Origin: Thermoplasmata archaeon
Lineage (GTDB): Archaea; Thermoplasmatota; Thermoplasmata; Sysuiplasmatales; Sysuiplasmataceae
NCBI GenBank assembly: GCA_021806165.1
Contig: JAJZXY010000006.1
Span: forward strand, 34,295-98,294
Reading direction: 5' to 3'
DNA length: 64,000 bases
Numbering within the stretch: position 1 is the first letter of the stretch; every line of letters begins with the position of its first letter. Positions 31,298 to 52,756 of the stretch are shown piece by piece. A program made the position numbers and the translations under genes. A model generated the notes under the pieces. It was not told the DNA's origin, searched no databases, and worked only from the letters and a program-made list of their open reading frames with translations.

Positions 31298-31305
31298 TAC
31301 CGCCC

Positions 31306-32280
31306 CTAGTAAGCAACGGACCTGCTTATGTAGCTCATGATTCTTTCAGCGTCCGGGAGATAGACATTTTCCCATGTATAGGTGAACGGAGTATCAAAGC
31401 CTGAAACACGCAGTACCGGGGCGCTGAGACTGTCCACAGCCTTCTCCGCTATTATTGCTGCAATCTCTGCGGCATAGCTGCAAAATTTCGGTGCCTCATT
31501 GACAATCACCGCCCTTCCGGTCTTCTCTACAGATGATATGACCGTGTCGGCGTCTACCGGCGATAGCGTCCTGAGGTCAACAACTTCGGCGGATATGCCC
31601 TTTGACGCAGCCTCATCAGCCGCCTTGAGGCAGGTGTGCACCGACGCGCCATATGATATCAGTGTGACATCCTCCCCTTCCCTGACTATGCTGGCCTTGC
31701 CTATCGGAACTGTATAGGCACCGTCCGGCACCTCACCCTTTACAGTCCTGTATATGCGCTTCGGCTCAAGGAAGATTACGGGGTCATCATCCCTTATGGC
31801 CGCGATGAGCAGTCCCTTGGCGTCTCCCGGATTGGAAGGTGTCACCACCTTCAGCCCGGACGTGTGTGTGAAATAGGCCTCCGAACTCTGTGAGTGGTAG
31901 AGCCCGCCCTTGATTCCTCCCCCGTAAGGTGTCCTGATGACCAGGGGGGCTGTGTAGGTGGCGCCGGACCTGTACCTTATCTTTGACAGTTCGCTCACAA
32001 TCTGATCAAAAGCAGGGTATATGAAATCCATGAACTGGATCTCGGCAATGGGCCTGAGCCCGTACATTGCCATTCCAGTTGCGGTGCCTATGATGCCCGA
32101 CTCGTTCAGAGGCGCATCCATCACACGCCCTGGGCCGAACTTGTCGATGAGCCCTTCGGTAGCGCGGAAGACTCCGCCGTCCCTTCCGACGTCTTCGCCT
32201 ATGATGACAACGCGCTCATCCTCTTCCATCTCCACTCTCATTGCATCGTTGACAGACTGAAGCAGTGTTCTGACGGCCAT
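31306..32280 (-). CDS. 2-oxoacid dehydrogenase E1 beta subunit
   Basis: 324 residues from ATG 32280 (MAVRTLLQSV), which has GGAAGTGA just upstream; an open extension to 32352 lies inside the E1 alpha gene and is unlike the family. Blocks such as VIIGEDVGRDGGVF, DAPLNESGIIGTATGMA, QFMDFIYPAFDQI and TPYGGGIKGG are characteristic of E1 beta of pyruvate/branched-chain dehydrogenases; the Glu of LNESG activates thiamine diphosphate in the alpha subunit. The gap to E1 alpha is 5 bp. Confidence 0.95.
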   Translation of the reverse strand: MAVRTLLQSVNDAMRVEMEEDERVVIIGEDVGRDGGVFRATEGLIDKFGPGRVMDAPLNESGIIGTATGMAMYGLRPIAEIQFMDFIYPAFDQIVSELSKIRYRSGATYTAPLVIRTPYGGGIKGGLYHSQSSEAYFTHTSGLKVVTPSNPGDAKGLLIAAIRDDDPVIFLEPKRIYRTVKGEVPDGAYTVPIGKASIVREGEDVTLISYGASVHTCLKAADEAASKGISAEVVDLRTLSPVDADTVISSVEKTGRAVIVNEAPKFCSYAAEIAAIIAEKAVDSLSAPVLRVSGFDTPFTYTWENVYLPDAERIMSYISRSVAY

Positions 32281-32285
32281 GGTAA

Positions 32286-33410
32286 TCACTTCCCTGTGTA
32301 CCCCGCGCCGTAGCGCTGGACTGTTTCCTCCATCTCCTCCCTGAGATTCCATGTCATTTCGGAGTATACATTCTCAAAAATGCTCTCAACCGGAGGCCTG
32401 GGCGTGCCCTCAGCCTTCTTGGCAGCCGCCCTTATCTCCGAATCAATCTCATCGCCGATCTTCTTCTCGGACCGCTCATCCATAAGCCCCTTCCTCCTGA
32501 GATATAACGCCATGCGCCTGATAGGGTCCTTCCTCTTCCACTCCTCCACCTCCTCCTTGTCCCTGTATTTGGTGGGGTCGTCAGAGGAAGAATGGGGACC
32601 AAGCCTGTAGGTGATAGCCTCAATCATGGTCGGCCCTCCCCCGCTTCTTGCCCTCTCAACCGCCCGCGCCGAAGCCGAGTATACTGCGAGTATGTCGTTG
32701 CCATCAACCCTCTCGCCAGGGATTCCATAGGCAACTGCCTTCTGGACCAGCGTTTCAGCGGCTGTCTGCCTTCTTGTCGGCAGGGATATGGCGTAACCAT
32801 TGTTCTGGCAGAGGAAAATGACTGGAGCCTTGAAAACCCCGGCGAAATTCATGCCAGAGTGGAAGTCATTCTCTGAGGTAGCACCATCACCGAAGAAAGT
32901 CAGAGCCACATCCTTCCTCTTCATTATCCTGGCAGCCATGGCCATTCCCACGGCATGAGGTATCTGCGTGGCTATCGGACTGGAAGGAGTAACCACATTT
33001 ACCTTTCTGGAATTGAAGTGGTTTGGCATCTGCCTCCCCTTGTTGTAGTCGAGAGAATTGCCGAACAGCTGGTGGAACAGCTGCAGCACAGTCTCCCCCC
33101 TGAGAAGGAGCGCCCCGGGCTCCCTGTATGCCGGGAATATCCAGTCATCCCTGCCAAGCACGGCAGTCGAGCCAACGCTGCATGCCTCCTGTCCAGCAGC
33201 GCCAATGTAGAAGCCGATCCTCCCCTGTCGCTGCAGTCCCATGGATATCTCCTCGAACTTGCGGACAGTCGCCATCGTCCTGTACATGCGCAGAAGGAGC
33301 TCCTCCGGAATATCAGGCTCCAGCTCTTTCCTGAAGTTACCCTCAATGTCCAAAATCTGCAGCATCCCTGTCTCTTTCCTCAATTCCATGCTTTCCTTCA
33401 AAGTCTTCAC
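32286..33410 (-). CDS. 2-oxoacid dehydrogenase E1 alpha subunit
   Basis: Up to 374 residues. The thiamine diphosphate motif is GDGATSENDFHSGMNFAG followed by CQNNGYAIS; RTQGRIGFY-like QRQGRIGFYIGAAGQEA and the phosphorylation-loop-like RLGPHSSSDDPTKYRD are also present. It decarboxylates the 2-oxoacid and reduces lipoyl-E2. The GTG at 33410 overlaps the lipA stop (GTGA); ATG at 33389, preceded by AAGGAAA, is an equally good start, and the first ~16 residues are not conserved. Substrate could be pyruvate or branched-chain 2-oxoacids. Confidence 0.94.
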   Translation of the reverse strand: MKTLKESMELRKETGMLQILDIEGNFRKELEPDIPEELLLRMYRTMATVRKFEEISMGLQRQGRIGFYIGAAGQEACSVGSTAVLGRDDWIFPAYREPGALLLRGETVLQLFHQLFGNSLDYNKGRQMPNHFNSRKVNVVTPSSPIATQIPHAVGMAMAARIMKRKDVALTFFGDGATSENDFHSGMNFAGVFKAPVIFLCQNNGYAISLPTRRQTAAETLVQKAVAYGIPGERVDGNDILAVYSASARAVERARSGGGPTMIEAITYRLGPHSSSDDPTKYRDKEEVEEWKRKDPIRRMALYLRRKGLMDERSEKKIGDEIDSEIRAAAKKAEGTPRPPVESIFENVYSEMTWNLREEMEETVQRYGAGYTGK

Positions 33411-34330
33411 CTTCCGGAAAACTGTTTGACGCCCGGTTCCCCCACAGCTGTGACCGGGCCGCCTGCAAGCAACCCCTCCAGGTAGAGTTCCCCCGCCCTG
33501 TATGAACTCCTCACAAACGGGCCAGAAGCCACCATTGCAAAACCAAGCGCTCTAGCCTCTGCCTCATACTCCGCGAATGTAGCCGGATTGACATATTCTG
33601 CCACTGGCAGGTGTCGCTGTCCGGGTCGCAGATACTGTCCGATGGTTAAAGCATCGACTCCTGCATCCCTGATGTCCCGCATCGCTTCCGTCACCTCCTC
33701 CCTTGTCTCTCCAAGACCAACCATTATCGATGTCTTCGTGATTCTGCCAGACCTGTCCTTCAGATATCTAAGCACATCCAGACTCTGGTCGTACCCGGCC
33801 CTCCTGTCCCTTACTGAAGGTGTGAGCCTCCTCACCGTCTCGACATTGTGGGCAAGAACATCTGCTCCTGAACCCACGACTGCGTCAAGGGAATCCCTGC
33901 TACCCCTGAAGTCTGGCATCAGGACCTCCACCCTTACGTCAGACATCTCCTTGATAAGCATCACAGTTCTGGCAATATGTCCCGCCCCCCCGTCTGCCAG
34001 ATCATCCCTGTCGACCGAGGTAAGGACGACGTATGTCAGGCCGCTCTCGGCGACCGAGCGCGCCACCCTCTCAGGTTCCTCCCTGTCAAGAATGCGCATC
34101 GGGTTCGCGGTCTTGACCGCGCAGAACCTGCACCCCCTGGTGCAGATGTCACCCATCAGGAGGACTGTGGCAGTTCCGCCCCCCCAGCATTCGGAAATGT
34201 TGGGGCATTTCGCCTCCTCGCAGATTGTATGGAGGTGCAGCGACCTGAGTCTGCTCTTCAGCTCCCCGTACGCGGGGGTTGCCCCCATTCTGACTCTGAG
34301 CCATTCTGGCTTTCTGCTGTCGATCATCAT
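33407..34330 (-). CDS. lipA: Lipoyl synthase LipA
   Basis: 307 residues. Auxiliary cluster ligands Cys37, Cys42 and Cys48 (CEEAKCPNISECW), radical-SAM ligands Cys63, Cys67 and Cys70 (CTRGCRFC), and the C-terminal RSSY in FVRSSYRAGE are all there, so both [4Fe-4S] sites are complete. It inserts two sulfurs into octanoyl-E2. It is first in the operon; GGAGAAG sits just before the ATG and a TATA-like TTAAAGGTATAAG lies ~40 bp upstream on the minus strand. Few archaea encode LipA beside their oxoacid dehydrogenase genes; Thermoplasma relies on lipoate ligase (established from published work, from memory). Confidence 0.95.
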   Translation of the reverse strand: MMIDSRKPEWLRVRMGATPAYGELKSRLRSLHLHTICEEAKCPNISECWGGGTATVLLMGDICTRGCRFCAVKTANPMRILDREEPERVARSVAESGLTYVVLTSVDRDDLADGGAGHIARTVMLIKEMSDVRVEVLMPDFRGSRDSLDAVVGSGADVLAHNVETVRRLTPSVRDRRAGYDQSLDVLRYLKDRSGRITKTSIMVGLGETREEVTEAMRDIRDAGVDALTIGQYLRPGQRHLPVAEYVNPATFAEYEAEARALGFAMVASGPFVRSSYRAGELYLEGLLAGGPVTAVGEPGVKQFSGR

Positions 34331-36600: not shown

Positions 36601-36636
36601 ATCACTGCACGGCACGGCATCACTGCACGGCACGGT
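36601..36636. repeat. 18-bp tandem repeat across the GH31 stop codon
   Basis: Two copies of ATCACTGCACGGCACGGY (36601-36618 and 36619-36636), preceded by a partial third copy (GGCACGGT, 36593-36600). The GH31 stop codon, TGA on the minus strand, lies at 36620-36622 within the second copy, so the last five codons come from repeat sequence. The 18-bp unit keeps frame. Confidence 0.9.
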
Positions 36637-38686
36637 GGTTACTGTTTCTTTGCTTCGAGCCTGCATGCTTCCTGCTTGAGCCGGCCCTGGAGAGGACACT
36701 GACTCTTCTGAAACCCCTGCCGGCAACCCTGGTCCTTCCATTTTCGCTCAGGCAGCCTGTCATTTTGCCGTCCATGCTGCACCTCCCCCCTTCAATGCCA
36801 AGGAAAGTGACCTCCCCCTCCTCAACTGTATGTCCGGCATCGAAGCCGGTTGCGTCCGATTTCAGCAGTCGCTCCTTTCCATCGAACATATGGAACTCCC
36901 CGCTGCCATATGCCAGGTAGGCATTGCCGCTCATCGGTATGACGCTTCCCCGCCTGATGAATATGCTGTCCCCCTCCCCCCTTCTGAACCAGCCGGGTCC
37001 CGTCAACTCCGCCCCCTCGTAAAGAGAGAACCATCTGCCCTCCGGCAGGTAGACATCCCTTCCGCTCTCACCCTTCTCAAGCAGTGGTGCATAAAGCAGT
37101 GAGCGACCCGCCATGTACTCGTCGTTTATGCTGTATGCAGTCCTGTCGTTCTGGAACTCGTAGCACAGGGGTCTTGCAACAGGATGCCCTGTCCTGTGCG
37201 CCTCATAGGCAAGCGAATAGAGGTACGGCATGAACATGTATCTTGTGGACACCGCATCTGCGGCCATCTTCCTGAATCGTTCAGGAAGCAGGTAGAGCTC
37301 CTGGTCAGACCCATCTTTCGCCTTGTGGTTCCTGAAAACAGGGAAAAATAGGGCCATCTGGTAGTACCTTGCAAGCAGCTCTCCCTCAGTCCTCCCGGCG
37401 AATCCACCGAGATCGCACCCGGCGAAAGGTATGCCTGATATGCCCATGCTGGTGACAATTGGTATCTGAAGCCTGAGGTCGTCCCACGAGGAGATGTTGT
37501 CACCTGTCCAAATTGCGGCATACTTCTGTATGCCGGCATAGCCTGATCTTGAGAGTATGAACGGTTCTTCAACAACCTCCTTCATTGCCTCGTAGGTTGC
37601 GCGCACCTCCATAAATCCATATGCATTGTGTACACTCCCGTGTTTCACCCTCTCGCCGCGGTAGGAATGCACCGCATCCTCGGGTATTGTTTTCGTCTCG
37701 CTGAACACACTCGGTTCGTTCATGTCGAGCCAGAGGCCGTCAAGGCTGTTTTCGGTGACGAACGACTTCACCATCCGCTTCCAGTGGTCAACGGCTTCAT
37801 CCCTGAAGAAGTCTGGAAAAGCGCACAGCCCGGGCCACACCCTGCCAAGGTAGAGTTCCCTGTCCCCGGTCTCCACATAGCCGCCGACACCCTTTTCAAA
37901 ATGCCTGTACCCCTGCTCCGCCTTCAGTCCCGGGTCGATTATGGCAACAGCCCTGATCCCCTTCCTGTGCAGACTTTCAACCATCCCCTTCGGATCCCTG
38001 AATATTTTGCTGTTCCAGGTAAACAGCTTGAAACCATCCATGTAGTCTATGTCAAGATAGATTGCTGAGACGGGGACCGACCTGGCGTACTCCCCGGCCA
38101 CCTTCAGCACATAGCTTTCAGGATAGTAGCTGTACCTGGAAATCTGGTGGCCCAGACTCCACTCGGGCGGCATGAAGGGCATACCTGTGAGGCCCACAAA
38201 CTGTTCAACTACCTCCTCAATGGTGCTGCCCTCGAATATGTATATCTCAGCGTGTTTCTCAGGGATTTTTACAAGCACCTGATCATATTCGCTCACGCCC
38301 ACATCAAACACCACTTCTGAAGTCGAGTTGACAAAATAACCTGCGACCTTCTCCCTGACCGATATGAAGAAAGGTATGGATGTGTAGATGGGGTCATCAC
38401 CGCGCCTGTATCCACCAGGGTCTGTATTCCACATCCGGAGCACAAGCCTTCTCCGCTCAATGTCGAACGCCTTTTCGCCGAAACCTATCACATGCTCATA
38501 GGTGTCAAGCTCCTTCCTGAGCGCCAATCCCCACTCCTCCTCGCTTATCGCCACCCTTCCGCAGGAAGTGCCTATCTCCCGTCCTCCTCTTCTCTCCACC
38601 CCCTTGAAAGAGTACTCAATGACAGGTGTCCGCCTGTTGACAGTAATCCTTCTTGCCTTCCCCTTTCCAGTTATCCCTACCTTCAA
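36620..38686 (-). CDS. GH31 alpha-glucosidase
   Basis: 688 residues. N-terminal beta-sandwich (~1-160), then the catalytic barrel with MPPEWSLGHQISRYSYYP, LDIDYMDGF, the nucleophile Asp321 in WLDMNEPS, and the acid/base Asp in WTGDNISSWDDL. Likely a cytoplasmic exo-acting alpha-glucosidase releasing glucose from maltose, maltooligosaccharides or glucan ends; there is no signal peptide. The start is TTG at 38686 with GGGAG 10 nt upstream. It diverges from glgB across a 157-bp spacer and probably feeds on the glucan handled by the neighbouring cluster. Confidence 0.93.
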   Translation of the reverse strand: MKVGITGKGKARRITVNRRTPVIEYSFKGVERRGGREIGTSCGRVAISEEEWGLALRKELDTYEHVIGFGEKAFDIERRRLVLRMWNTDPGGYRRGDDPIYTSIPFFISVREKVAGYFVNSTSEVVFDVGVSEYDQVLVKIPEKHAEIYIFEGSTIEEVVEQFVGLTGMPFMPPEWSLGHQISRYSYYPESYVLKVAGEYARSVPVSAIYLDIDYMDGFKLFTWNSKIFRDPKGMVESLHRKGIRAVAIIDPGLKAEQGYRHFEKGVGGYVETGDRELYLGRVWPGLCAFPDFFRDEAVDHWKRMVKSFVTENSLDGLWLDMNEPSVFSETKTIPEDAVHSYRGERVKHGSVHNAYGFMEVRATYEAMKEVVEEPFILSRSGYAGIQKYAAIWTGDNISSWDDLRLQIPIVTSMGISGIPFAGCDLGGFAGRTEGELLARYYQMALFFPVFRNHKAKDGSDQELYLLPERFRKMAADAVSTRYMFMPYLYSLAYEAHRTGHPVARPLCYEFQNDRTAYSINDEYMAGRSLLYAPLLEKGESGRDVYLPEGRWFSLYEGAELTGPGWFRRGEGDSIFIRRGSVIPMSGNAYLAYGSGEFHMFDGKERLLKSDATGFDAGHTVEEGEVTFLGIEGGRCSMDGKMTGCLSENGRTRVAGRGFRRVSVLSRAGSSRKHAGSKQRNSNHRAVQ

Positions 38687-38849
38687 GCATCACAACTCCC
38701 TGAGGACCAGTGTGCTGCTAAACTTCAGGTATTAGTTAGCGTTTGTGCTGCGGCGCAATTCAGCATTCGGGTCTGTAAATCGAAAAGAAACTTATTTCTG
38801 AACCCCTCTACTCCTTCAGGCCGAGTAGAAGAAGAAGGGAAGATTGCAG

Positions 38850-41015
38850 ATGAATTCGAATTCAAGAAACGTTGAACATTTCGAGGAAGCCGATCCGTAC
38901 GCCATCCTGGGTTATGACGGAGGAAGCGGCACGATGAGGTGCTTCCTCCCGCTTGCGCGCAGGGCCTGGGTAGAGGCTGAGGACGGGTCCAAGCTGGCCG
39001 ACCTTGAAAAGGTATCCGAGGCCGGCTACTTCACGGCTGAAATGGGGAGGCCTGAGGGCCACTATTCCATTGCCTTTGCCGACGCCTCGGGCTACGTCGA
39101 CAGGAAGCGCGACCCCTACCAGTTCCCACCGTCACTATCAGAGTATGAGATTTACCTGTTCAGGAAGGGTGAACTCCTGAAGAGCTACGAGACTCTAGGT
39201 GCACATCCAGTGACCAGGGAGGGTGTCAGGGGTACCAGGTTTGTGGTCTGGGCGCCGAATGCGTCCGCTGTTTCGGTCGTGGGCAATTTCAATCACTGGA
39301 CGGCAGGTGCCCACCCGATGGGCAACGTGCAGTCCTCCGGAATATGGGAGCTGTTCATACCGGATGTGGGAGTCGATGAAATCTACAAGTTTGCCATTCG
39401 CTCCAGCCTCGACGGCAGTGTCCGGGTCAAGACTGATCCGTATGCCTACAGGACGGAGATGCGACCCAGGACGGGATCCGTGGTCGCCGACCTCTCATTC
39501 AGCTGGACTGACGATGCCTGGATGGCACAGAGGGGAAAGGGGGACGCGGTCGCATCACCTGTTTCTGTTTATGAAGTGCATTTGGGCTCCTGGAGAAGAA
39601 ACCAGGACGGTTCATTCATGAACTACAGGGAGGTGGGAAGGCAGCTTATTGAGTATGCCGTCAGGCTGGGATTCACGCATATCGAACTCATGCCTGTTAT
39701 GGAGCATCCGCTCGATGCATCATGGGGCTATCAGGTTGTCAATTACTATTCGCCCACTTCGAGGTATGGCCTCCCATCAGACTTCATGTGGTTCGTGAAT
39801 GAATGCCACAGGAAGGGCCTCGGGGTAATCCTGGACTGGGTTCCTGCTCACTTCCCTGACGACGAGTTCGGCCTCTCATCCTACGACGGCACCCACCTTT
39901 TCGACCACCAGGATCCGAGGAAGGGCAGGCACCCTGACTGGGGAACCAACGTTTTCAATTACGGGAGAAACGAAGTAAGGAATTTCCTTCTCAGCAATGC
40001 GCTTTTCTGGCTGGGTTGCTACCACGCAGACGGGCTGCGCATCGACGCCGTGACATCTATGCTCTATCTCGACTATTCAAGGAAGGAGGGGGAATGGATT
40101 CCAAACCAGTACGGCGGGCGGGAGAACCTTGAGGCAATAGAATTCATCAGGTCGCTCAACAGGGCGGTTCACGAACTTTTCCCCGGGGCGCTTACAATAG
40201 CAGAGGAATCCACAGCCTGGGGGGGTGTAACCAGCAGGACTGAATATGGAGGGCTCGGATTCGATTTCAAATGGAATATGGGGTGGATGCATGACACGCT
40301 CGAATATTTCTCCAGGGATCCGGTACACAGGAGATATCACCAGCGCAACCTGACATTCTCAGTCTGGTATGCATTCAGCGAGAAGTTCATGCTGCCATTC
40401 TCCCATGATGAAATAGTCCATGGCAAGGGATCGCTGCTTTCAAAGATGCCTGGCGACTACTGGCAGAAATTTGCCAACCTGAGGCTCTGCCTCGCCTATA
40501 TGTTCGCAAGCCCGGGAAAGAAGCTTCTCTTCATGGGGATGGAGATGGCCCAGTGGAACGAGTGGAGTGAGGAAAGGCAGCTTGACTGGCAGCTTCTGGA
40601 TTTTCCTGCTCACAGCAGGATATCCCTGCTTGTCGGGGATCTCAACAGGATTTACAGGGGACACAGGGAGATGCACGAGCTCGATTGTGAACCGCGCGGC
40701 TTCGAATGGATTGATTTCAGCGATTCGGACAACAGCGTTATAAGCTTCCTCAGGCGTTCCACCGACGGCAGGGCTCTCCTGTTTGTATTCAACATGACAC
40801 CTGTTCCCAGGAAAGGATACAGGATCGGCGTGCCCTGGAAGGGGAGATACAGGGAGATGCTCAACACTGATTCGGAAGCATACGGCGGGAGCGGCGTGGG
40901 GAACTACGGCTCGGTGTCCAGTGAGGAGGTGCCGATGCACGGGAGGGGACAGTCGGTTAGCCTGACGCTTCCACCGCTCGCGGCCGAGATATTCATTTTT
41001 GAAGGCGGGGTGTGA
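38850..41015 (+). CDS. glgB: 1,4-alpha-glucan branching enzyme
   Basis: 721 residues from ATG 38850. N1 domain (~1-105), CBM48 (~110-220: FVVWAPNASAVSVVGNFN), then the GH13_9 barrel with the nucleophile Asp399 in GLRIDAV, the acid/base Glu452 in IAEEST and SHDEIVHGKGS for the third carboxylate. It introduces alpha-1,6 branches into linear glucan. Two-domain N-terminus is the bacterial long type, common next to GlgE. First gene of the plus-strand cluster glgB-glgE-treS-mak-treX; GAAGGGAAGA lies 10-20 nt before the ATG. Confidence 0.96.
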   Translation: MNSNSRNVEHFEEADPYAILGYDGGSGTMRCFLPLARRAWVEAEDGSKLADLEKVSEAGYFTAEMGRPEGHYSIAFADASGYVDRKRDPYQFPPSLSEYEIYLFRKGELLKSYETLGAHPVTREGVRGTRFVVWAPNASAVSVVGNFNHWTAGAHPMGNVQSSGIWELFIPDVGVDEIYKFAIRSSLDGSVRVKTDPYAYRTEMRPRTGSVVADLSFSWTDDAWMAQRGKGDAVASPVSVYEVHLGSWRRNQDGSFMNYREVGRQLIEYAVRLGFTHIELMPVMEHPLDASWGYQVVNYYSPTSRYGLPSDFMWFVNECHRKGLGVILDWVPAHFPDDEFGLSSYDGTHLFDHQDPRKGRHPDWGTNVFNYGRNEVRNFLLSNALFWLGCYHADGLRIDAVTSMLYLDYSRKEGEWIPNQYGGRENLEAIEFIRSLNRAVHELFPGALTIAEESTAWGGVTSRTEYGGLGFDFKWNMGWMHDTLEYFSRDPVHRRYHQRNLTFSVWYAFSEKFMLPFSHDEIVHGKGSLLSKMPGDYWQKFANLRLCLAYMFASPGKKLLFMGMEMAQWNEWSEERQLDWQLLDFPAHSRISLLVGDLNRIYRGHREMHELDCEPRGFEWIDFSDSDNSVISFLRRSTDGRALLFVFNMTPVPRKGYRIGVPWKGRYREMLNTDSEAYGGSGVGNYGSVSSEEVPMHGRGQSVSLTLPPLAAEIFIFEGGV

Positions 41016-41039
41016 AGCCTGCCTCATTCTCCGGGCATC

Positions 41040-42950
41040 GTGATAAGTGATGTCCGTCCGCAGGTGGACTGCGGACGACACCCTGCCAAGCGCACGGTTG
41101 GCGATATTGTCGAAGTCTCTGCGGACATATTCATGCACGGCACAGACATCCTGTCTGCAGATGTGCTGTACAGGCGGGCAGGGGAAAGGGGCTGGTCAAG
41201 GAGTGCGATGAGGCAGGGCGACAACGACAGATGGACCGGTGCCTTCACGGCTGTGGAGAACACCACCTACCAGTACACGATAGAGGCATGGGTCGACACC
41301 TACTCCACATGGCTTGAGAAGCTGAAGAAGTGGCATCTCGCAGGCGAGGACACCACGCAGGATGTGAGGACTGGTGCCGAGCTCCTCAGGGAGTGCTCTT
41401 CCAGGGCGGGCGCCGATGCGGAGAAGTTGAAGGCAGCGGCAGCAAGGATGGAAGCCTCATCTCCGGACGAGGCGGTGCGGGTTGCATCTGACAGCCAGAC
41501 CGTGGAACTCGCGCTACGTAACCAGAGGAGGGAGGCTTCACGATTCAGAAAGGTGCTTGAAGTTGCGGTAGACAGGCGCATAGCTGGTTTTGCCGCTTGG
41601 TACGAGCTCTTCCCGCGGTCACAGTCACCTCACCAGGGGAAGCACGGGACCTTCCTTGACTGCATTTCCCGTCTGGACGACATAGCAGGCATGGGATTCA
41701 ACGTCCTCTACCTTCCTCCAATACATCCGATAGGCGTAACCAGCAGGCGGGGCAGGAACGGTGCGCTGCATGCATCCCGTGACGATCCTGGGAGCCCGTG
41801 GGCGATAGGCTCGGCCGAAGGGGGACACAAGTCAATTCACAGGGAACTGGGCACAATGGATGATTTCCGCTTGCTGATGAAGAAGGCGGCGCAGAAGGGA
41901 ATCGAGGTTGCCATAGACATAGCATTCCAGTGCTCCCCCGACCACCCGTACGTCAGGGAGCATCCGGAATGGTTCTATCACAGGAGGGACGGGTCGATAA
42001 GGTACGCCGAGAATCCGCCGAAGAAGTATTTCGACATATACCCACTTGACTTCCGCAACAGCGACTGGAAGGCGCTCTGGGAAGAGCTGAAAAGTGTTTT
42101 CACCTTCTGGATTGACGCGGGAGTGAGGATATTCAGGGTGGACAATCCGCACACCAAGCCATTCGAGTTCTGGGAGTGGGTCATCGGGGAGATAAGGGGA
42201 AAGCATCCCGACGTAATATTCCTCTCCGAGGCGTTCACGCGGCCGAAGGTGATGTATGAGCTGTCAAAGCTCGGATTTTCACAGTCATACACCTACTTCA
42301 CCTGGAAAAACTTCAACTGGGAACTGGAGGAGTATTTTTCCGAAATCACGTCACCTGAAATTACCGACTTCTTCAGGCCAAACCTCTTTACCAACACACC
42401 GGACATACTTCCTTTCGTATTGCAGAACGGCGGGAGGCCTGCCTTCTTGATGCGGGCCCTGCTTGCGGCCACCCTCTCCCCGGTGTGGGGAATATACAGC
42501 GGATTTGAACTGTGTGAAAACGAGGCACTCCCCGGAAAGGAGGAGTACATGAACTCGGAAAAGTACGAGATCAGGCAGAGGGACTGGAACAGGGCCGGGA
42601 ATATAAAGGAGTTCATCAGCCGCCTGAACAGGGTGAGGGCTGAATGCCCGCAGCTGCAGGAATCCGGGGGACTCTCTTTCCATCCTGTGGGGAATCCCAA
42701 CATAGTCTTTTACACCCGCGCAGCCGTCAGGTCGGGCAGGCCGCTGATGGTTGTAGTCAACATAAACCCGTTCGATGCGCAGGATGCAGTGCTGCGCATT
42801 CCACTTGATGAATTGGGCCTCGTGAGGGACCAGGATTACGTCGTGAGGGATATGCTCACAGGCGAAGCGTTCAGGTGGCACGGAGAATATAATTACGTGA
42901 GACTTGTTCCCGGCGAGAGACCGGGCCACATATTCACGCTGGAAGGGTGA
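41040..42950 (+). CDS. glgE: Alpha-1,4-glucan:maltose-1-phosphate maltosyltransferase
   Basis: 636 residues of GH13_3. YELFPRS near 183, GFNVLYLPPIHPIG, PGSPWAIGSAEGGH and the nucleophile Asp368 in VRIFRVDNPHTKP with acid/base Glu397 in LSEAFTRPKVM are the GlgE hallmarks; the 29-residue spacing of the two carboxylates equals that of the characterised Streptomyces enzyme (from memory). GlgE extends alpha-1,4-glucan with maltosyl units from maltose-1-phosphate, releasing phosphate. Start is GTG at 41040, 24 bp after glgB, with no strong ribosome-binding site. Its donor is supplied by the maltokinase two genes downstream. Confidence 0.96.
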   Translation: MISDVRPQVDCGRHPAKRTVGDIVEVSADIFMHGTDILSADVLYRRAGERGWSRSAMRQGDNDRWTGAFTAVENTTYQYTIEAWVDTYSTWLEKLKKWHLAGEDTTQDVRTGAELLRECSSRAGADAEKLKAAAARMEASSPDEAVRVASDSQTVELALRNQRREASRFRKVLEVAVDRRIAGFAAWYELFPRSQSPHQGKHGTFLDCISRLDDIAGMGFNVLYLPPIHPIGVTSRRGRNGALHASRDDPGSPWAIGSAEGGHKSIHRELGTMDDFRLLMKKAAQKGIEVAIDIAFQCSPDHPYVREHPEWFYHRRDGSIRYAENPPKKYFDIYPLDFRNSDWKALWEELKSVFTFWIDAGVRIFRVDNPHTKPFEFWEWVIGEIRGKHPDVIFLSEAFTRPKVMYELSKLGFSQSYTYFTWKNFNWELEEYFSEITSPEITDFFRPNLFTNTPDILPFVLQNGGRPAFLMRALLAATLSPVWGIYSGFELCENEALPGKEEYMNSEKYEIRQRDWNRAGNIKEFISRLNRVRAECPQLQESGGLSFHPVGNPNIVFYTRAAVRSGRPLMVVVNINPFDAQDAVLRIPLDELGLVRDQDYVVRDMLTGEAFRWHGEYNYVRLVPGERPGHIFTLEG

Positions 42951-42955
42951 TTGGA

Positions 42956-44611
42956 GTGGAGGAACCGCTCTGGTTCAGGGATGCAATCTTCTACGAGATC
43001 CCAGTGAAATCCTTCTTCGACTCGAACGATGACGGCATTGGCGACCTGAATGGCGTAAGGATGAAACTCGACTATCTCAGGGGACTGGGTGTCGACTGCG
43101 TATGGCTTCTCCCGTTCTACAAGTCGCCCATGAAGGATGACGGATACGACATTTCAGACTACTACAGCATTCAGCCTGAATACGGCACCCTGGATGACTT
43201 CAAACTTCTGCTGACGGAGGCCCATTCGAAGGGCATGAAAGTCATAGCGGATCTCGTCATGAACCACTGTTCAGACCAGCACAGCTGGTTCAAGGACGCC
43301 TCTTCCAGCAGGGATTCGCCAAAGAGGGACTGGTTCGTATGGAGCGACGACGACACGAAGTACAGCGGTGTCAGAGTCATATTCACAGACACGGAGATTT
43401 CCAACTGGACGTGGGAGCCCAGGACCAAACAGTATTACTGGCACAGGTTTTACAGCCACCAGCCTGACCTGAACTATGACAACCCGGAGGTCAGGAAGGA
43501 GATGCGGAATGTGATACGCTACTGGCTGAAAATGGGGCTTGACGGCTTCAGGTGCGATGCAGTCCCTTATCTCTTCGAGCGCGAGGGGACATCATGTGAG
43601 AACCTTCCTGAAACGCACAGGTATTTCAAGCGCATCAGGAAGATGATGGAGGAGGAGTTCCCCGGAACGATTCTTCTGGCCGAGGCGAACCAGTGGCCCT
43701 CTGACGCAAAGGCATATTTCGGCAACCAGGATGAGTTCCACATGGCGTTCAACTTCCCGCTGATGCCAAGGATATTCATCGCACTGGCGAAGGAGGACGC
43801 CTATCCTATAATCAACATAGTCAAGGAGACAATACCGATACCTGAGAAGTGCGACTGGGGAATATTCCTTCGAAATCACGACGAACTCACGCTCGAGATG
43901 GTAACCAACGAGGAGCGCGACATAATGTATTCCGAATACGCAAAGCTCCCCAAGATGCGCCTGAACCTCGGCATAAGGAGGAGGCTTGCGCCTCTTCTGG
44001 ACAGCGACAGGGCCTCGCTTGAGCTTGTCCATGCGCTCATACTCTCCCTGCCGGGATCACCCATTCTCTATTACGGCGACGAGGTGGGCATGGGAGACAA
44101 CATCTACCTCGGTGACAGGAACGGGGTCAGGACGCCCATGCAGTGGTCGTATGACAGGAATGCAGGCTTCTCCAAGGCGGATGCCGAACAGCTCTATTCT
44201 CCCCCGGTGACCAGTCCGAATTTCCACTACGAGAGCAATAACGTCGAATCTGAAAACAGGCTCCCTTCATCCCTGCTCAACTGGGTCAGAAGGATGCTCG
44301 CCGTCAGGAGGAAGTATGCGCAGGTCATGGGAAGGGGAGAGATAAGGTTCCTGGAGCACAGGAACAAGCGTGTCCTCTCCTACGTCCGAAGTTACGGCGA
44401 CGAACACATGGTCTGCATCTTCAACCTCTCCAGAAAGCCGACATATCTGGAACTCTCGCTCCCGGAGTTTGCAGGGCTCAAACCCATCGAGGCAATAACC
44501 GACGCCCCTTTCCCCAGGATTGGCGAGCTTCCCTACTTCTTCACGCTTCACCCCCGGTCATTCTTCTGGTTGAGCCTGACAAAGCCCACGGGGAACGACG
44601 AGGTGGATTGA
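42956..44611 (+). CDS. treS: Trehalose synthase (maltose alpha-D-glucosyltransferase)
   Basis: 551 residues from GTG 42956, chosen because GGTGA (42946-42950) is 5 nt upstream; GTG 42947 has no room for one. GH13_16 features: WFRDAIFYEIPVKSFFDSNDDGIGD, nucleophile Asp201 in GFRCDAVPYLFEREGTSCENLPETH (two blocks), acid/base Glu243 in LAEANQWP and RNHDELTLEM. It interconverts maltose and trehalose without cofactor. No maltokinase is fused; the separate mak gene starts at the very next base after its stop, so the pair is tightly coupled. Confidence 0.96.
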   Translation: MEEPLWFRDAIFYEIPVKSFFDSNDDGIGDLNGVRMKLDYLRGLGVDCVWLLPFYKSPMKDDGYDISDYYSIQPEYGTLDDFKLLLTEAHSKGMKVIADLVMNHCSDQHSWFKDASSSRDSPKRDWFVWSDDDTKYSGVRVIFTDTEISNWTWEPRTKQYYWHRFYSHQPDLNYDNPEVRKEMRNVIRYWLKMGLDGFRCDAVPYLFEREGTSCENLPETHRYFKRIRKMMEEEFPGTILLAEANQWPSDAKAYFGNQDEFHMAFNFPLMPRIFIALAKEDAYPIINIVKETIPIPEKCDWGIFLRNHDELTLEMVTNEERDIMYSEYAKLPKMRLNLGIRRRLAPLLDSDRASLELVHALILSLPGSPILYYGDEVGMGDNIYLGDRNGVRTPMQWSYDRNAGFSKADAEQLYSPPVTSPNFHYESNNVESENRLPSSLLNWVRRMLAVRRKYAQVMGRGEIRFLEHRNKRVLSYVRSYGDEHMVCIFNLSRKPTYLELSLPEFAGLKPIEAITDAPFPRIGELPYFFTLHPRSFFWLSLTKPTGNDEVD

Positions 44612-46099
44612 ATGCCTTCTCCCGAGGGCGGAGAGGTTCAGGCAATCGGAAGGGCTCTGGCGGAGGAGCTGCCCTCGCAGCGCTGGTTCGGTGGCAAGGC
44701 GAGGAAGATATCGTTCCACCAAATCCTGGACTTCGGCGAGTGCACTGCGGGCGGCAGGAGATTCCTGCTGCCAATCATCCGGATCAGCTTTGAGGAGGGT
44801 GGCACGGAGGATTATTTCATACCGCTGAGGAGGCTGGAGGGGGATTACAGGGAATCAGGCGGCATCAGCGTTACACTTGATACCCCTGGAGGGTCTGCCA
44901 CGTATTCGGACGCGCTGCACGACATAGAATTCATCAGGCTGATATTCTCAATGCTTTCAGGCGGCGGGAGAATTGTGATGAACCACGGCGAAATCAGGGC
45001 CGAGCCAGCTGAAAGCTTCCACGGCAGTCTTTCCGCCGCCCCGTCCATGTCGAAGGTGGTCTCCTCGGAGCAGAGCAACACCTCCGTGATATTGGATGGA
45101 AGGACGATATACAAGAGCTACAGGAGGCTGGAGAGCGGGGAAAATCCGGACTATGAGGTAGCTGCCGTCCTGACTTCCCGCACGCAATTCCGCTCAATTC
45201 CAGCTCCTCTTGGAAAACTCGCCTATCATGGCCAGTCCACCTCCCTTCTCGGCTCGCTCAGCGTCTTCATCCAGAACGAGGGGGACTGCTGGAGCTATGT
45301 CACAGGCATGCTCTCCGACCACTTTCTCGGAGGCAACGCGCCCCCGGGTGATTTCATTGAAAAGCTCGGACTCACAACTTCTGCAATGCACAACGCCCTC
45401 TCCTCAGTCGGCGGCATAGACGGCTTTGCGCCGCTGCCCATAGCTGAAGAGGATGTGCTCAGGTGGAAGGGGGACTACAGGGAACTCCTCGCGGGAGCGC
45501 TCCTTTCGCTGGAGAGGCACATGCCCGACCTGGGACGCAGCGCTGCCGAAGTGGGCCAGGCCGTGATGGAAAGGAGGCGAAGGCTGTTTGATGCAGGCGC
45601 CGGGGCAGGCAACCTTCTGGGCAGGGGAATACACAGGATAAGGATACACGGCGACTATCACCTCGGCCAGGTTCTCAAGTCGGGAAGCGAGCTGTATGTC
45701 ATAGATTTCGAAGGGGAACCCATGAGGCCTCTGGAATACAGGAGGAGCCCCCACTGCGCCCTCAGGGATGTGAGCGGAATGCTGCGCTCACTCGACTATG
45801 CATCTGCTTTTGCCGCAAGGAAGTCCGGGACGGGGGGAGGTGCAGCAGAGAAGTGGAGTGCGGACGCATCTTCACTGTTCCTGGAATCCTACTGGAAGGG
45901 GTACAGCCCGTCGTCAGAGTATCTGCCGGCAGACTTCGGCGAAATGAAGGAGGCGCTAAGGTTCTTCACTATTGAAAAGGCCGTCTATGAGCTGAACTAC
46001 GAACTCAACAACAGACCGGAGTGGGTCGAAATACCCCTCAATGCACTTGCCAGACTGTCCGGAGCGGCCGCACAAACAATAAATAAGGACAGGATCTGA
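44612..46099 (+). CDS. mak: Maltokinase
   Basis: 495 residues of the maltokinase (Pep2) branch of the aminoglycoside-phosphotransferase-like kinases. LPSQRWFGGKARK lies near residue 20, RIHGDYHLGQVL holds the catalytic loop (His346, Asp348), and VIDFEGEPMRPLEYR holds the metal-binding Asp. It phosphorylates maltose to maltose-1-phosphate with ATP, the step that drives trehalose carbon into glucan. The ATG follows the treS stop directly, with a GAGGTGG-like sequence inside the treS end. Confidence 0.95.
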   Translation: MPSPEGGEVQAIGRALAEELPSQRWFGGKARKISFHQILDFGECTAGGRRFLLPIIRISFEEGGTEDYFIPLRRLEGDYRESGGISVTLDTPGGSATYSDALHDIEFIRLIFSMLSGGGRIVMNHGEIRAEPAESFHGSLSAAPSMSKVVSSEQSNTSVILDGRTIYKSYRRLESGENPDYEVAAVLTSRTQFRSIPAPLGKLAYHGQSTSLLGSLSVFIQNEGDCWSYVTGMLSDHFLGGNAPPGDFIEKLGLTTSAMHNALSSVGGIDGFAPLPIAEEDVLRWKGDYRELLAGALLSLERHMPDLGRSAAEVGQAVMERRRRLFDAGAGAGNLLGRGIHRIRIHGDYHLGQVLKSGSELYVIDFEGEPMRPLEYRRSPHCALRDVSGMLRSLDYASAFAARKSGTGGGAAEKWSADASSLFLESYWKGYSPSSEYLPADFGEMKEALRFFTIEKAVYELNYELNNRPEWVEIPLNALARLSGAAAQTINKDRI

Positions 46100-46108
46100 A
46101 TCGGGGAT

Positions 46109-48231
<2,123 letters not shown>

Positions 48232-48259
<28 letters not shown>

Positions 48260-50007
48260 GGATGAAGTGTGAACCGCCCTCCGCCCGGTGCTGAGTATGC
48301 GCCGCCATATTCAGCCGATTCCGAGTGGAACACAAGTGCTGTATCTTCCCCAGCATCAATACGTCTCTCCCCCCCGCAGAGCGAGATGAATACCTTCATC
48401 CCCGATCCGTACGCCAGTTCTCCGACACCATCTGCCTGAACGAACGAATGCCTTCCGGGCTGCGTGGTGATGTATCTCCTCCTCAGGGAAGTGAGCTTCC
48501 TGTACATTGCCCTGCTCTTCTCAGACCCCTCATCCTCATTCCATCGCAGCTTCGATGCCATGAAAGTTTCAGCGCTCACCGGGTCCGGTGTATCGGTCCA
48601 TCCGAAGCGCTCAAACTCCCTCCTTCTCCCCTCCCTCACCCTCCTGGCGAATTCCGTGTCATCCGTGTCGATGAAAAAAAGGAACGGGGCGGTCTCGCCG
48701 TACTCCTCGCCCTGGAACAGCATCGGTGTGAAGGGGGAGAGCAGAAGAAGCGAGGCCGCAAACCTAACCTTCCCCCTGTCTGCCAGCGCCGTCAGCCTCT
48801 CGCCGAATGCCCTGTTGCCAATCTGGTCGTGGTTCTGCACGCACGCGACCAGCTTCATGAAAGGAAGGTCCCCCCACGGGGCACCCCTCCTCCTGGAAAG
48901 GTTGGCGGAATATTTCCCGTCATATACGAATCCATTGAGTAGGGATGATGCGATATCCGCGGCGCCGCTGTAATCGGAGTAGTAACCAGCGTTTTCGCCC
49001 GTTATGTACGTGTGGACTGAATGATGGAAATCATCATTCCACTGCGCATCGAGACCGTAGCCGCACTCCCCCCTTCCCCTGACCACCATGCTGTCGTTGA
49101 GGTCGCTTTCCGCAATGAGGTATATTTTCCTCCCGCTTGCAGCCGAGAATGAAGCTACCCGCCTAGACATTTCGGAGAGGAGATGTTCAGGAGATGTGTC
49201 CAGGATGCCGTGAATGGCATCAAGCCTGAGTGCGTCGAACCTGAACTCATCGACCCAGTATAGCGCATTCCTTATCACATGCTCCCTGACAGGATCGCAC
49301 ATTTCGCCATCATAATTGAGCCCGGCTCCCCAGGGTGTCGAGTGCCTTCTGCTGAGGAATGGACCGAATTCGCTGAGGAATCCTCCCGCGGGGCCTATGT
49401 GGTTGTAGACAACGTCGAGTATGGCTGCCATGCCTGCAGCATGTATGTTGTCCACCAGGTGCTTGAGATCATCCGGATTTCCGTAGCTGTTATGCGGGGC
49501 GTAGAGGAGCACGCCGTCATACCCCCAGTTCCTGGCGCCGTGGAACTGTGCCACGGGCATAAGCTCTATTGCAGTGATGCCTGTGGAAGCAACAGACTCG
49601 AGCTTCTCCACTGCGCTGTCGAATGTACCTCCGGGGGTGAATGTGCCGGTGTGCACCTCCTCTATTACAAATTCTCCCAGTTCAATCCCCTTCCAGCCTG
49701 CCTGCCCCCAGCTGTAGCTGTCCCTGTCCGTTATCTCTGAAAGTCCGCTGATGCCTTCCGGCTGGTATCTGGACGCCGGGTCCGGATAGGGCCCCTTTCC
49801 GTCCAGGATAAAGCAGTACCTCTCACCCGCATCCAGGGGCGTGTCAAGCCTCCAGAATCCAAGCTCCTCGCCCGTCATCTCCAGCTCCCTCCCGTCGCCC
49901 AGCCTGACTGAAACCTTCCTCTTCCCGGGCGCCCAAACCCTGAGCTCTGTGCCTCCCGCAGTCTGGGAGGGTCCGAAGGCGAACCTGTCCCCCTCAATCC
50001 TGCCCAT
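48232..50007 (-). CDS. treZ: Maltooligosyltrehalose trehalohydrolase
   Basis: 591 residues from ATG 50007, which has GGAGGG upstream; longer in-frame starts lie inside treY. CBM48-like N-terminus (TELRVWAPGKRKVSV), GH13_10 barrel with nucleophile Asp263 in LRLDAIHG, acid/base Glu300 in LIAESDLND and the VQNHDQIGNRAFGERL block. It releases trehalose from maltooligosyltrehalose made by TreY. The start overlaps the treY end by 14 bp, giving translational coupling. Confidence 0.95.
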
Positions 50008-52633
50008 CGGATTGCGCCCTCCTTTGCCCTGTCGCAACCCCCACCGGAAAGCAGTCAAGCAGATCGGCTGCGCGCAGGACAGGCATGTCAACCCGGTGCG
50101 TTGCAGCCAGATGCCTGCCCGTTATGCTGTTGGTGAATGAAGCGGGTGAGTCTGAAGGAAGCAGCACATTTGTACCCTCCCAGCTATTTCCCCAGATGTC
50201 CCCGGCCCGATCTGCCGCAATCCCTGCTGTCAGCCTTGGAACGGCTGCCACAAGCCATCTCACGTCGCATACACGTGCAAACGCTATCAGATGATTTGAT
50301 AGAGGTCCGCTGACCTGAAGCGGAATGTATGCGCCTTCGAGGAAGAGCTGCGGATCCTCCCTGCGCATATGGAGCAGCAACCTTGTCAGGAACATCTTGA
50401 CCAATCCCTCATCCTTCCCGGACTGCATTTCGCTGACAAATGCAGGATCCATTCCACGATCCTCGATATGCTTCAGCATCACCGAGAGTTTTTCAAAGTC
50501 GATGCTCCTCCTGTTGTCCGGATCGGTCATTCCCAGATTCCACACCTCGGATCCCTGATATGTATCAGGTATGCCCGGGCACAACATCTTGAGTGTCAGG
50601 AGTGAAAGCGAATTCAGGGATCCATGGAAAATGATCTCAGGAAGGAATTTGTCAAAGGACTCTGCAAATGATCTGTTGCTGCCATCCAGCAGGGAATCAA
50701 GGAAAAGGATACATCCATTCTCCCACTCTTCGCAGGGCTCTTCCCAGCAGCTGTTCAGGGATGCCTCCCTGAGAGCCTTTATAATCTGCCTCTCTGCACG
50801 CTTCCTGTAGCCTGCGCTTCCCCTGCCGCCGGCCGGGCATGTGCCTGCAAGCAGCTGGTACATGTAGTATTCCTCCGCAGGCGAGGGGCACGTCTTCCCT
50901 CCCACATTCGTCCTGAACCCATCCCCCTCCCTGAACCAGGCAATCACCATCTCGCCCCACTTTCCGTGGATTTCGGAGAGGTAATGCATCCTGGCTCTCG
51001 CATCCTCCCCGTACTTGGTGTCGTGCGTGGAGGTGCAGTTCATCGACAGGGGAAAACGGCGGGCGCGGTTTGCAATGAATGAATGGAATGCATCTGCATC
51101 GCTGCCGAAACATGCAGGATCGGAACCCACCTCATTCAGTGGAATAAACCTGGCATATCTGAAGAATATGCTGTCCTCGAGCGATTTGGCAGCAATTGCA
51201 GGGGAAAGCTGCTGAAGCCTGACAAGGCAGCTCCTGGCTCCTGCATCAGTCGCTGCATCGTCAATCAGCCTTGAAAGGGCAGCGTTCTCCCTTTCAAGCC
51301 AAGGCAGCCTCGCCCCCGACCTCGAAACAGCCTCCTTCAGAATAGAGCGGTCCTTCGGGGAAGCTGCGCCCTCCGTGACGTACGTCCTGTATATGCGGAG
51401 ACTGGATAGGAGGCCACCGATTGCGGCGCGCATGCGCCCTGCCGTGACGTCCGAACCGTACTCCTTTCCGCGGATACACTGAAGGAAGCGCTGCGTCAGG
51501 TTGTCGATGTCACCCGCGAAGAGCCTGCCGATAACCTCTTCCCGTGCTTCTGTGCGCATCTCCTCAGTCAGGACAGCGCCGCCGGCGAATGTCGAGTAAA
51601 TCCGTGTCATAGCCTCCTCTGCCCCCCTGTCCACGAAGAGAAGTGCGGATGCATTGAGGAAATCGTAGCCTGTCGTTCCCTCGACTGGCCAGGCCGGCTC
51701 CAGCTCTTCATCCGCCGAGAGTATCTTCTCAACCACGACATATGCCCCTTCTGCTATTTTCCTCAGCCTGTGCAGGTACTCCAGCGGATCTGCTAGCCCG
51801 TCTATATGATCAACCCTGACCCCGTCTATCGTGCCGTCCTCTATCCAGCGCCTTACAAGCGCATGCGTCTCCTCGAAAACAGAGGGGTCCTCCATCCTCA
51901 GGCCTATGAGTCCGTTTACGGCGAAGAACCGCCTGTAGTTGATCTCCTCGGACGCGCTCCTCCAGTTGCGCAGCAGGTAGTTCTGGTCAGAGATTATTCT
52001 GTTCAGCCTCCCTCTGTCGGCATTTATGCTCTTCGCCGCCTCCCTGAGCGCCTCTTCGCCGCCTCCCTCTGCAGCGGAAACTATTTCAGAGATGCTTTCC
52101 GGGCATATCGGGAACTTCATTCCGGCGCACTCCAGGCATGGTTCTCCCTCTAACGCTATTCTGATCAATCCACCAGTAAGGCAATCAATGTAGTCACGTT
52201 CCAGGAATGGCGCAAGAACCCTGCCGCGTAGTGCAGGCAGGTGGTGATTCCAGTCGATGTCGAACATGAATGCAAATCTGGACGACCGCCCATGTTTCAG
52301 TACATCATAAATGAACCTGTTCTCAGTATGGTATGCCATGTGGTTGGGGACAATTCCCTGCAGCCATCCGAGCCCCTCGGCATGCACTTTTTCCATAAGG
52401 CCACTAAACGCCTCCTCGGAGCCGAACTCGCCCCTCACCGAACCGGCATCCGTTACGTCGTAGCCATGCCCGCTGCCCGTCCTTGCCTCGAAGATGGGCG
52501 ATGAGTAAATTGTGGATATGCCAAGCCTGCGGAGATATGGGGCAACCTTCTCGGCCTCCCTGAAAGTGAAATCGGGACTGAACTGCAGCCTGTAGGTTGA
52601 TATCACCCTTCTTCCGTTCACCCTGGAAGGCAT
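49994..52633 (-). CDS. treY: Maltooligosyltrehalose synthase
   Basis: 879 residues from ATG 52633 (MPSRVNGRRV), with GGGAGGG upstream; the frame is open to 52732, but that would run into the divergent promoter region. GH13_26: STYRLQFSPDFTF at the start, SSPIFEARTGSGHGYDV, nucleophile Asp275 in GVRVDHIDGL, acid/base Glu302 in VVVEKILS, and CTSTHDTKYGEDARAR. It converts the reducing end of a maltooligosaccharide into an alpha,alpha-1,1 linkage. Somewhat longer than the ~720-residue Sulfolobus enzyme, close to bacterial forms. Confidence 0.95.
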   Translation of the reverse strand: MPSRVNGRRVISTYRLQFSPDFTFREAEKVAPYLRRLGISTIYSSPIFEARTGSGHGYDVTDAGSVRGEFGSEEAFSGLMEKVHAEGLGWLQGIVPNHMAYHTENRFIYDVLKHGRSSRFAFMFDIDWNHHLPALRGRVLAPFLERDYIDCLTGGLIRIALEGEPCLECAGMKFPICPESISEIVSAAEGGGEEALREAAKSINADRGRLNRIISDQNYLLRNWRSASEEINYRRFFAVNGLIGLRMEDPSVFEETHALVRRWIEDGTIDGVRVDHIDGLADPLEYLHRLRKIAEGAYVVVEKILSADEELEPAWPVEGTTGYDFLNASALLFVDRGAEEAMTRIYSTFAGGAVLTEEMRTEAREEVIGRLFAGDIDNLTQRFLQCIRGKEYGSDVTAGRMRAAIGGLLSSLRIYRTYVTEGAASPKDRSILKEAVSRSGARLPWLERENAALSRLIDDAATDAGARSCLVRLQQLSPAIAAKSLEDSIFFRYARFIPLNEVGSDPACFGSDADAFHSFIANRARRFPLSMNCTSTHDTKYGEDARARMHYLSEIHGKWGEMVIAWFREGDGFRTNVGGKTCPSPAEEYYMYQLLAGTCPAGGRGSAGYRKRAERQIIKALREASLNSCWEEPCEEWENGCILFLDSLLDGSNRSFAESFDKFLPEIIFHGSLNSLSLLTLKMLCPGIPDTYQGSEVWNLGMTDPDNRRSIDFEKLSVMLKHIEDRGMDPAFVSEMQSGKDEGLVKMFLTRLLLHMRREDPQLFLEGAYIPLQVSGPLSNHLIAFARVCDVRWLVAAVPRLTAGIAADRAGDIWGNSWEGTNVLLPSDSPASFTNSITGRHLAATHRVDMPVLRAADLLDCFPVGVATGQRRAQSDGQD

Positions 52634-52756
52634 CGCTCGTAATCCCTCCCGCAGTACATGCAGAATGTTATTGCTCCGCTGTTTAATAGATTTCAGGTGC
52701 TTCCGTCCGAAATACTGAACTATGAGCGCCACTTTGCAGTAGGTGGTTGTCTATTG

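Follow-up and report, generated by a model that had tools for sequence, protein, structure and literature searches.

A GlgE operon facing treZ and treY in a glycogen synthase-bearing Thermoplasmata archaeon: a probable route from GlgA glucan through trehalose to branched glucan

How does carbon enter a trehalose-glucan network when both of its arms are encoded in one archaeal locus? TreS, Mak, GlgE and GlgB convert trehalose to branched glucan via maltose 1-phosphate, and TreX, TreY and TreZ turn glucan back into trehalose. Genes for all seven lie together in a 64,000-nucleotide stretch of a Thermoplasmata archaeon (GenBank assembly GCA_021806165.1, contig JAJZXY010000006.1, positions 34,295 to 98,294; here assembly G000, contig C6), hereafter the window. 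From this stretch an initial annotation had proposed a closed cycle and left the entry of carbon open, as it saw neither a glycogen synthase nor GlgC, OtsA or OtsB there. That absence holds at the locus; genome-wide it fails for glycogen synthase: a GT5 enzyme, GlgA, is encoded on another contig (C22; TIGR02095, 501.2 bits, cut-off 328.45) with a nucleotidyltransferase nearby, and the closed cycle is therefore not supported for this genome. GlgA offers an answer to the carbon-entry question. We consider it probable that the GlgE operon facing TreY-TreZ in this GlgA-bearing archaeon runs mainly one way, from GlgA glucan to trehalose to branched glucan.

The locus

The assembly (1.88 Mb, 33 contigs, 95.9% complete) carries eight full-length open reading frames (ORFs) at positions 36620..52732 of the window, identified with NCBIfam and Pfam profiles and with matches to solved structures (GlgB and GH31 with NCBIfam and Pfam alone).

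36620..38686, minus strand: GH31 alpha-glucosidase (MalA-like), divergent from glgB; NF040948, 798.1 bits (cut-off 800); PF01055, 348.5 bits
38844..41015, plus strand: GlgB, GH13 branching enzyme, first gene of the apparent operon; PRK05402, 984.8 bits (cut-off 741)
41040..42950, plus strand: GlgE, maltose 1-phosphate maltosyltransferase; PF11896, 169.3 bits; PF21702, 77.5 bits; solved GlgE structures, E 1.6e-189
42947..44611, plus strand: TreS, trehalose synthase, separate from Mak (unfused); TIGR02456, 924.8 bits (cut-off 678.35); solved TreS 5x7u, E 4.9e-242
44612..46099, plus strand: Mak, maltokinase by similarity; TIGR02457, 285.9 bits (below cut-off 375.05); solved maltokinases, E 1.9e-39 to 4.2e-36
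46109..48259, plus strand: TreX/GlgX, debranching enzyme; TIGR02100, 946.5 bits (cut-off 640.9); solved 2vnc, E 1.1e-239
48232..50091, minus strand: TreZ, maltooligosyltrehalose trehalohydrolase; TIGR02402, 660.6 bits (cut-off 538.8); solved 1eh9, E 1.2e-142
49994..52732, minus strand: TreY, maltooligosyltrehalose synthase; TIGR02401, 811.7 bits (cut-off 498.65); solved 5zcr, E 2.6e-121

GH31 falls slightly under its NCBIfam cut-off; GlgB, TreS, TreX/GlgX, TreZ and TreY are all above theirs, so that every enzyme of the TreX-TreY-TreZ arm exceeds its curated cut-off. A string search found catalytic motifs in all eight proteins; we take these motifs to mark the catalytic sites, and alignments with solved structures back six of the eight. 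The eight genes with intact catalytic residues described initially are thus borne out. Sequence does not tell TreX from GlgX, according to the available text of PMC6355812.

From glgB through glgE, treS and mak to treX the genes are spaced by 24, -4, 0 and 9 bases (first start codon of each ORF), and on this layout the five look like one operon. The treY-treZ pair is convergent with it, the 3' ends of treX and treZ overlapping by 28 bases. The TreY coordinate is that of the first start codon, and the true start likely lies some 100 bases further in. The guanine-plus-cytosine content of the locus (53-58%) is the same as that of the entire window.

For GlgE, NCBIfam gave weak GH13 matches only, and the Pfam domains GlgE_dom_N_S (PF11896) and GLGE_C (PF21702) were over cut-off. 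Its best solved relatives are chains of alpha-1,4-glucan:maltose-1-phosphate maltosyltransferase (matched over residues 2-634); the motifs RIFRVDNPHTK, FLSEAF and NTPDI are present, and the catalytic stretches align with solved GlgE. Two GlgE relatives, P0007 (919 residues) and P0092 (1101 residues), also carry PF14701, a glycogen debranching enzyme domain, and are possible GlgE-debranching fusions.

Mak is the least certain of the eight (Mak_N_cap 20.6, under 22, in addition to the low TIGR02457 score). Its top three solved matches are maltokinases, with a glucosamine kinase trailing at 4.7e-17, and it carries HGDYHLGQ and IDFEG (catalytic and DFE-type loops); by similarity, it is a maltokinase. 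Assignment as a glucosamine kinase was rejected, as the signature taken from the available text of PMC6520443 is absent and the ranking of solved structures favours maltokinase.

Carbon entry and proposed flux

About 0.5 kb from GlgA, and divergent from it, are encoded a sugar nucleotidyltransferase, a short phosphomutase-like protein and a GH57-like protein, none of which reaches a curated NCBIfam cut-off. The GH57 protein has a weak branching-enzyme likeness (50.7 bits, cut-off 920). The phosphomutase-like protein (250 residues; L093 11636-12388, G000:C22) matches only domain I of phosphoglucomutase/phosphomannomutase and is retained in three relatives (G005, G006 and G007). GlgA adjoins the same AP-endonuclease-family gene in all six relatives examined, and the nucleotidyltransferase group lies within 2 kb of it in the same three; the contigs of G001 and G003 end too near GlgA to show whether the group is there.

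Other routes were sought in the genome. OtsA (GT20) had no match in G000 (control search positive in 6 of 14 known genomes) nor in any of the order's eight genomes, of which some are incomplete, and was rejected as the trehalose source. MalQ (GH77, PF02446) likewise had no match in G000 (control positive in 8 of 14), and a MalQ bypass to maltose was rejected as well. One GT4 protein (L105) weakly matches TreT_GT1 (31.3 bits) and scores 26.9 on a TreT model with a cut-off of 775. Ten Glycos_transf_1 matches were candidates for GlgM or a further glycogen synthase; in the nine ORFs scanned (all but L112), no protein other than GlgA scored above a glycogen-synthase cut-off. No GlgC was over cut-off among the proteins scanned, no genome-wide GlgC search having been made.

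The search for glycogen phosphorylase returned one ORF of 493 residues (L102 1405-2883, G000:C33) with a partial PF00343 match, 145.1 bits on TIGR02094 (cut-off 191.7) and a GlgA match of 81.4 bits. It may be a glucan phosphorylase or glycosyltransferase of half length or of unusual type; beyond this ambiguous ORF no full-length glycogen phosphorylase was found in G000. The genome also encodes three GH15 proteins. Two of their genes stand in tandem (G000:C20:107285-110273; L095, L096, L114) next to a thermosome gene and the archaeal nre gene, and the tandem member that was scanned is archaeal-trehalase-like (NF041084, 402.7 bits, cut-off 820; TREH_N, 65.5 bits). The third GH15 protein resembles oligosaccharide amylases (311.2 of 820.7).

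Because GlgA is present and OtsA and MalQ were not found, nucleoside diphosphate (NDP)-glucose via GlgA is the likely entry of carbon. No trehalose route other than TreY-TreZ was recognised in the searches, which covered OtsA and, through GT4 matches, TreT, and the trehalose-glucan loop is probably not closed in this genome. The activities of the whole set are predicted from sequence. Under the proposed flux, GlgA would polymerise NDP-glucose, TreY-TreZ would cut the resulting glucan to trehalose, TreS-Mak would carry trehalose to maltose 1-phosphate, and GlgE-GlgB would build branched glucan from it, with trehalose as an intermediate between two glucan pools. The ATP spent at Mak would pull TreS towards maltose, as published for bacteria. 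Should the cell require trehalose, TreX-TreY-TreZ could act as a return arm; GH31 and the three GH15 proteins may be exits.

More tentatively, and at somewhat less than even confidence, we suggest that the order makes a throw-away linear GlgA glucan for TreYZ trehalose and then spends ATP rebuilding a stored glucan. In this class TreYZ would then serve the GlgE cassette as an accessory, and the single recent loss of TreYZ in two sister species would be a natural knock-out separating the trehalose and glucan functions. If true, this would be a way of feeding the GlgE pathway not reported for archaea.

Distribution in the order and class

The sample comprised 300 genomes of the class, in which the order of the window is represented by eight genomes of one family (f1). 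The GlgE domain was matched in 40 of the 300; three weak matches (G031, G101 and G133; 23-27 bits) were dropped, leaving strong GlgE in 37 genomes (8 in f1, 7 in family f9 and 22 in family f17). Strong GlgA was defined by our own threshold of best E <= 1e-50, which dropped 112 of 133 GlgA-family genomes, mostly GT4-like. For TreY, 41 of 61 family-match genomes were below the family cut-off and were dropped, as were 25 of 85 for OtsA.

TreY is over cut-off in 20 of the 300 genomes. GlgE is present in 19 of these 20, versus 18 of the 280 genomes without TreY (Fisher's exact test, 6e-19, which ignores shared ancestry and therefore overstates the association); the TreY genome without GlgE is G241 (83% complete). 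In 15 of the 19, TreY is found no more than 14 kb from GlgE on the same contig; in 1 the two share a contig but are far apart, and in 3 they are on different contigs. The order GlgB-GlgE-TreS-Mak-TreX facing TreZ-TreY recurs in 5 of 80 related loci (L008, L009, L010, L011 and L022, the TreY of L011 being cut by the locus end) and in three genomes of the window's order (L098-L100).

Among GlgE carriers, those of f1 have GlgA in 7/8, TreY in 4/8 and OtsA in 0/8; those of f9 have TreY in 5/7, OtsA in 0/7 and strong GlgA in 0/7; and those of f17 have OtsA in 20/22, TreY in 10/22 and strong GlgA in 0/22. The combination of GlgA, GlgE and TreY is confined, in the sample, to G000, G004, G005 and G007. 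Five f9 genomes (G052, G058, G100, G156 and G164) have GlgE and TreY with no OtsA over cut-off and no strong GT5 GlgA; for this family (5 of 7 GlgE genomes) the open carbon-entry puzzle of the initial annotation is real. One conserved GlgE cassette thus appears with three trehalose supplies in the class: OtsA in f17, GlgA with TreYZ in f1 and an open case in f9. Since the supplies differ, the source of trehalose can be tested by comparing the families and the sister species that lack TreYZ.

These sister species are two species of the window's genus, represented by loci L006 (G001) and L004 (G003), each locus being tied to its genome by identical GlgE. In both, TreX is followed by the FAD oxidase gene with 3 and 80 bases, respectively, between open frames, gaps that leave no room for TreZ-TreY; no TreY was over cut-off elsewhere in G001 (69% complete) or G003 (95% complete). 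In a tree of five joined cassette proteins, G001 and G003 group together (94/95, slightly under the starred level) inside the group bearing TreZ-TreY, so one loss explains the pattern, and the absence looks like a single clean loss. It provides a natural test of the model.

Alternative explanations

Several points weigh against the one-way flux from GlgA glucan. Mak scores below its curated cut-off (TIGR02457), and GlgA and the cassette sit on different contigs. The nucleotidyltransferase near GlgA is below all models (best 254.6 of 440; GlgC 139.1 of 424.9); G004 is without this gene in the 3.2 kb examined beyond GlgA. G001 and G003 keep GlgA and GlgE without TreZ-TreY and without OtsA, and the order can apparently live without the TreYZ trehalose route or has another one. 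Finally, f9 and f17 have the GlgE cassette without strong GlgA, and the f9 cassettes are also without OtsA.

The closed, ATP-consuming trehalose-glucan buffer of the initial annotation, fed by imported trehalose or maltose, is a rival reading in which GlgA would be minor or serve another polymer. Both arms are indeed encoded, and two MFS-type proteins are found near the phosphorylase-like gene on C33; a buffer would also accommodate the f9 genomes with TreY and no OtsA or strong GlgA, and the sister species that retain GlgA and GlgE. Such a buffer is nevertheless unlikely in our judgement, as 7 of the order's 8 genomes retain a full-length GlgA and hence an entry, and a partial survey saw no sugar transporter among the window proteins scanned.

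GlgA and a branching enzyme might instead make storage glycogen directly, with TreX-TreY-TreZ mobilising it to trehalose and TreS-Mak-GlgE salvaging surplus trehalose only. This draws on the presence of both GlgA and GlgB, on the weakly branching-enzyme-like GH57 protein near GlgA and on the persistence of GlgA where TreYZ is lost. We regard it as decidedly unlikely: GlgB is in the GlgE operon and not beside GlgA, and in Pseudomonas aeruginosa, which has the same enzymes, TreYZ reportedly consumes the GlgA glucan and the polymer comes from GlgE (available text of PMC8084333).

TreS could also work mainly from maltose to trehalose, leaving Mak-GlgE as a separate system, e.g., for another maltosyl polymer. 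TreS is reversible, with an in vitro equilibrium that favours trehalose; against this, the same review (available text of PMC11046441) has flux going to maltose wherever maltose kinase is expressed, and treS and mak are adjacent here with zero gap, making this reading very improbable.

Bacterial contamination at this region, or its recent acquisition from bacteria, might be suspected because the best descriptions of GlgE pathways are bacterial, as are many of the 80 related loci. Its probability is negligible given the flanking archaeal genes and the GlgE, TreZ and TreY trees. Ribosomal protein S3Ae borders the cassette on one side and an FAD oxidase/iron-sulfur pair borders it on the other, and the S3Ae and FAD oxidase flanks are retained around the cassette in L004 and L006; the window also encodes an archaeal helicase and a LonB-type protease. 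The other seven genomes of the order all carry GlgE. In the GlgE tree (87 rows; quick method, Shimodaira-Hasegawa-like approximate likelihood ratio support only, locus L072 left out for coverage), a branch with support 100 has the 19 rows that bear the name Thermoplasmatota all to one side of it. The window's TreZ and TreY each group with Thermoplasmata homologues from the same cassette, with support 99 in each tree. Bacterial contamination had been named at the outset as one of the findings that could overturn the annotation; flanks and trees instead agree on an archaeal locus, and with both gene sets confirmed, the pairing of the GlgE route with a TreXYZ arm in it stands.

A single TreZ-TreY history across the whole class is another matter. 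In three further Thermoplasmata loci (L026, L028 and L064), TreY, TreZ and GlgB are divergent from GlgE-TreS-Mak, and their TreZ and TreY fall outside the window-cassette group, a placement that appears to count against such a history. Separately, a contig named Nitrososphaerales (L020) has TreZ, GlgE, TreY, TreX and TreS clustered, and its GlgE sits among bacterial ones.

Comparison with known systems

What is new about the cassette is how an archaeon arranges known pathways; the chemistry is not new. With the Sulfolobus-type pathway it shares TreX, TreY and TreZ, the best solved relatives of TreZ and TreX (1eh9 and 2vnc) being Sulfolobus structures; to our knowledge, that pathway has no GlgE arm.

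P. aeruginosa is the best-fitting model, because GlgA is present and OtsA was not found. As described in the available text of PMC8084333, it has GlgA, TreYZ, TreS/Pep2 and GlgE; TreYZ consumes the GlgA glucan, and the GlgE polymer stays. Each of the two genomes encodes GlgA, TreY, TreZ, TreS, a maltokinase, GlgE and GlgB together with a debranching enzyme, and in each GlgA is encoded away from the GlgE operon. They differ in that the host here is archaeal, TreS is not fused to Mak, the GlgE operon includes TreX with TreYZ adjoining (TreX and TreYZ are with glgA in P. aeruginosa), and neither MalQ nor a full-length glycogen phosphorylase was found here.

Mycobacteria, according to the available text of PMC11046441, likewise combine the GlgE route with a glucan-to-trehalose arm in one cell, with TreS and Mak separate; they also have OtsA-OtsB2 and GlgC-GlgM, whereas no OtsA was found here.

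Complete archaeal GlgE sets are in print for Picrophilus, Acidiplasma and Cuniculiplasma (available text of PMC6355812 and PMC11046441) and, together with the 37 class genomes with strong GlgE, they put out of date the initial view that a full archaeal set is unusual. The three genera belong to the same class as the window, judged by the names of related contigs, and share archaeal TreS, Mak and GlgE with it (for Cuniculiplasma TreS alone is named). For E-plasma, trehalose-6-phosphate synthase and phosphatase have been reported (available text of PMC10354927), which would agree with the OtsA of f17 if E-plasma corresponds to G161.

In its available text, the 2024 review (PMC11046441) presents GlgE as taking the place of glycogen synthase in archaea and states for named species that GlgE-using archaea lack the latter. 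This does not hold for the window's order, where 7 of 8 genomes have GT5 GlgA as well as GlgE; the three genera above are stated to be without glycogen synthase. No report of GlgA, GlgE and TreYZ in one archaeon was found in the titles and abstracts that searches of the open-licence literature listed. That an archaeal order keeps both GlgA and GlgE, in a combination known from pseudomonads, suggests a two-glucan network that extends beyond those bacteria.

Other features of the window

A formiminotransferase (2538-3458) and an aromatic amino acid lyase family protein (13741-15258) are encoded elsewhere in the window and possibly take part in histidine breakdown. Positions 30104-34330 hold a run of 2-oxoacid dehydrogenase E1/E2 genes with a lipoyl synthase-like radical SAM gene.

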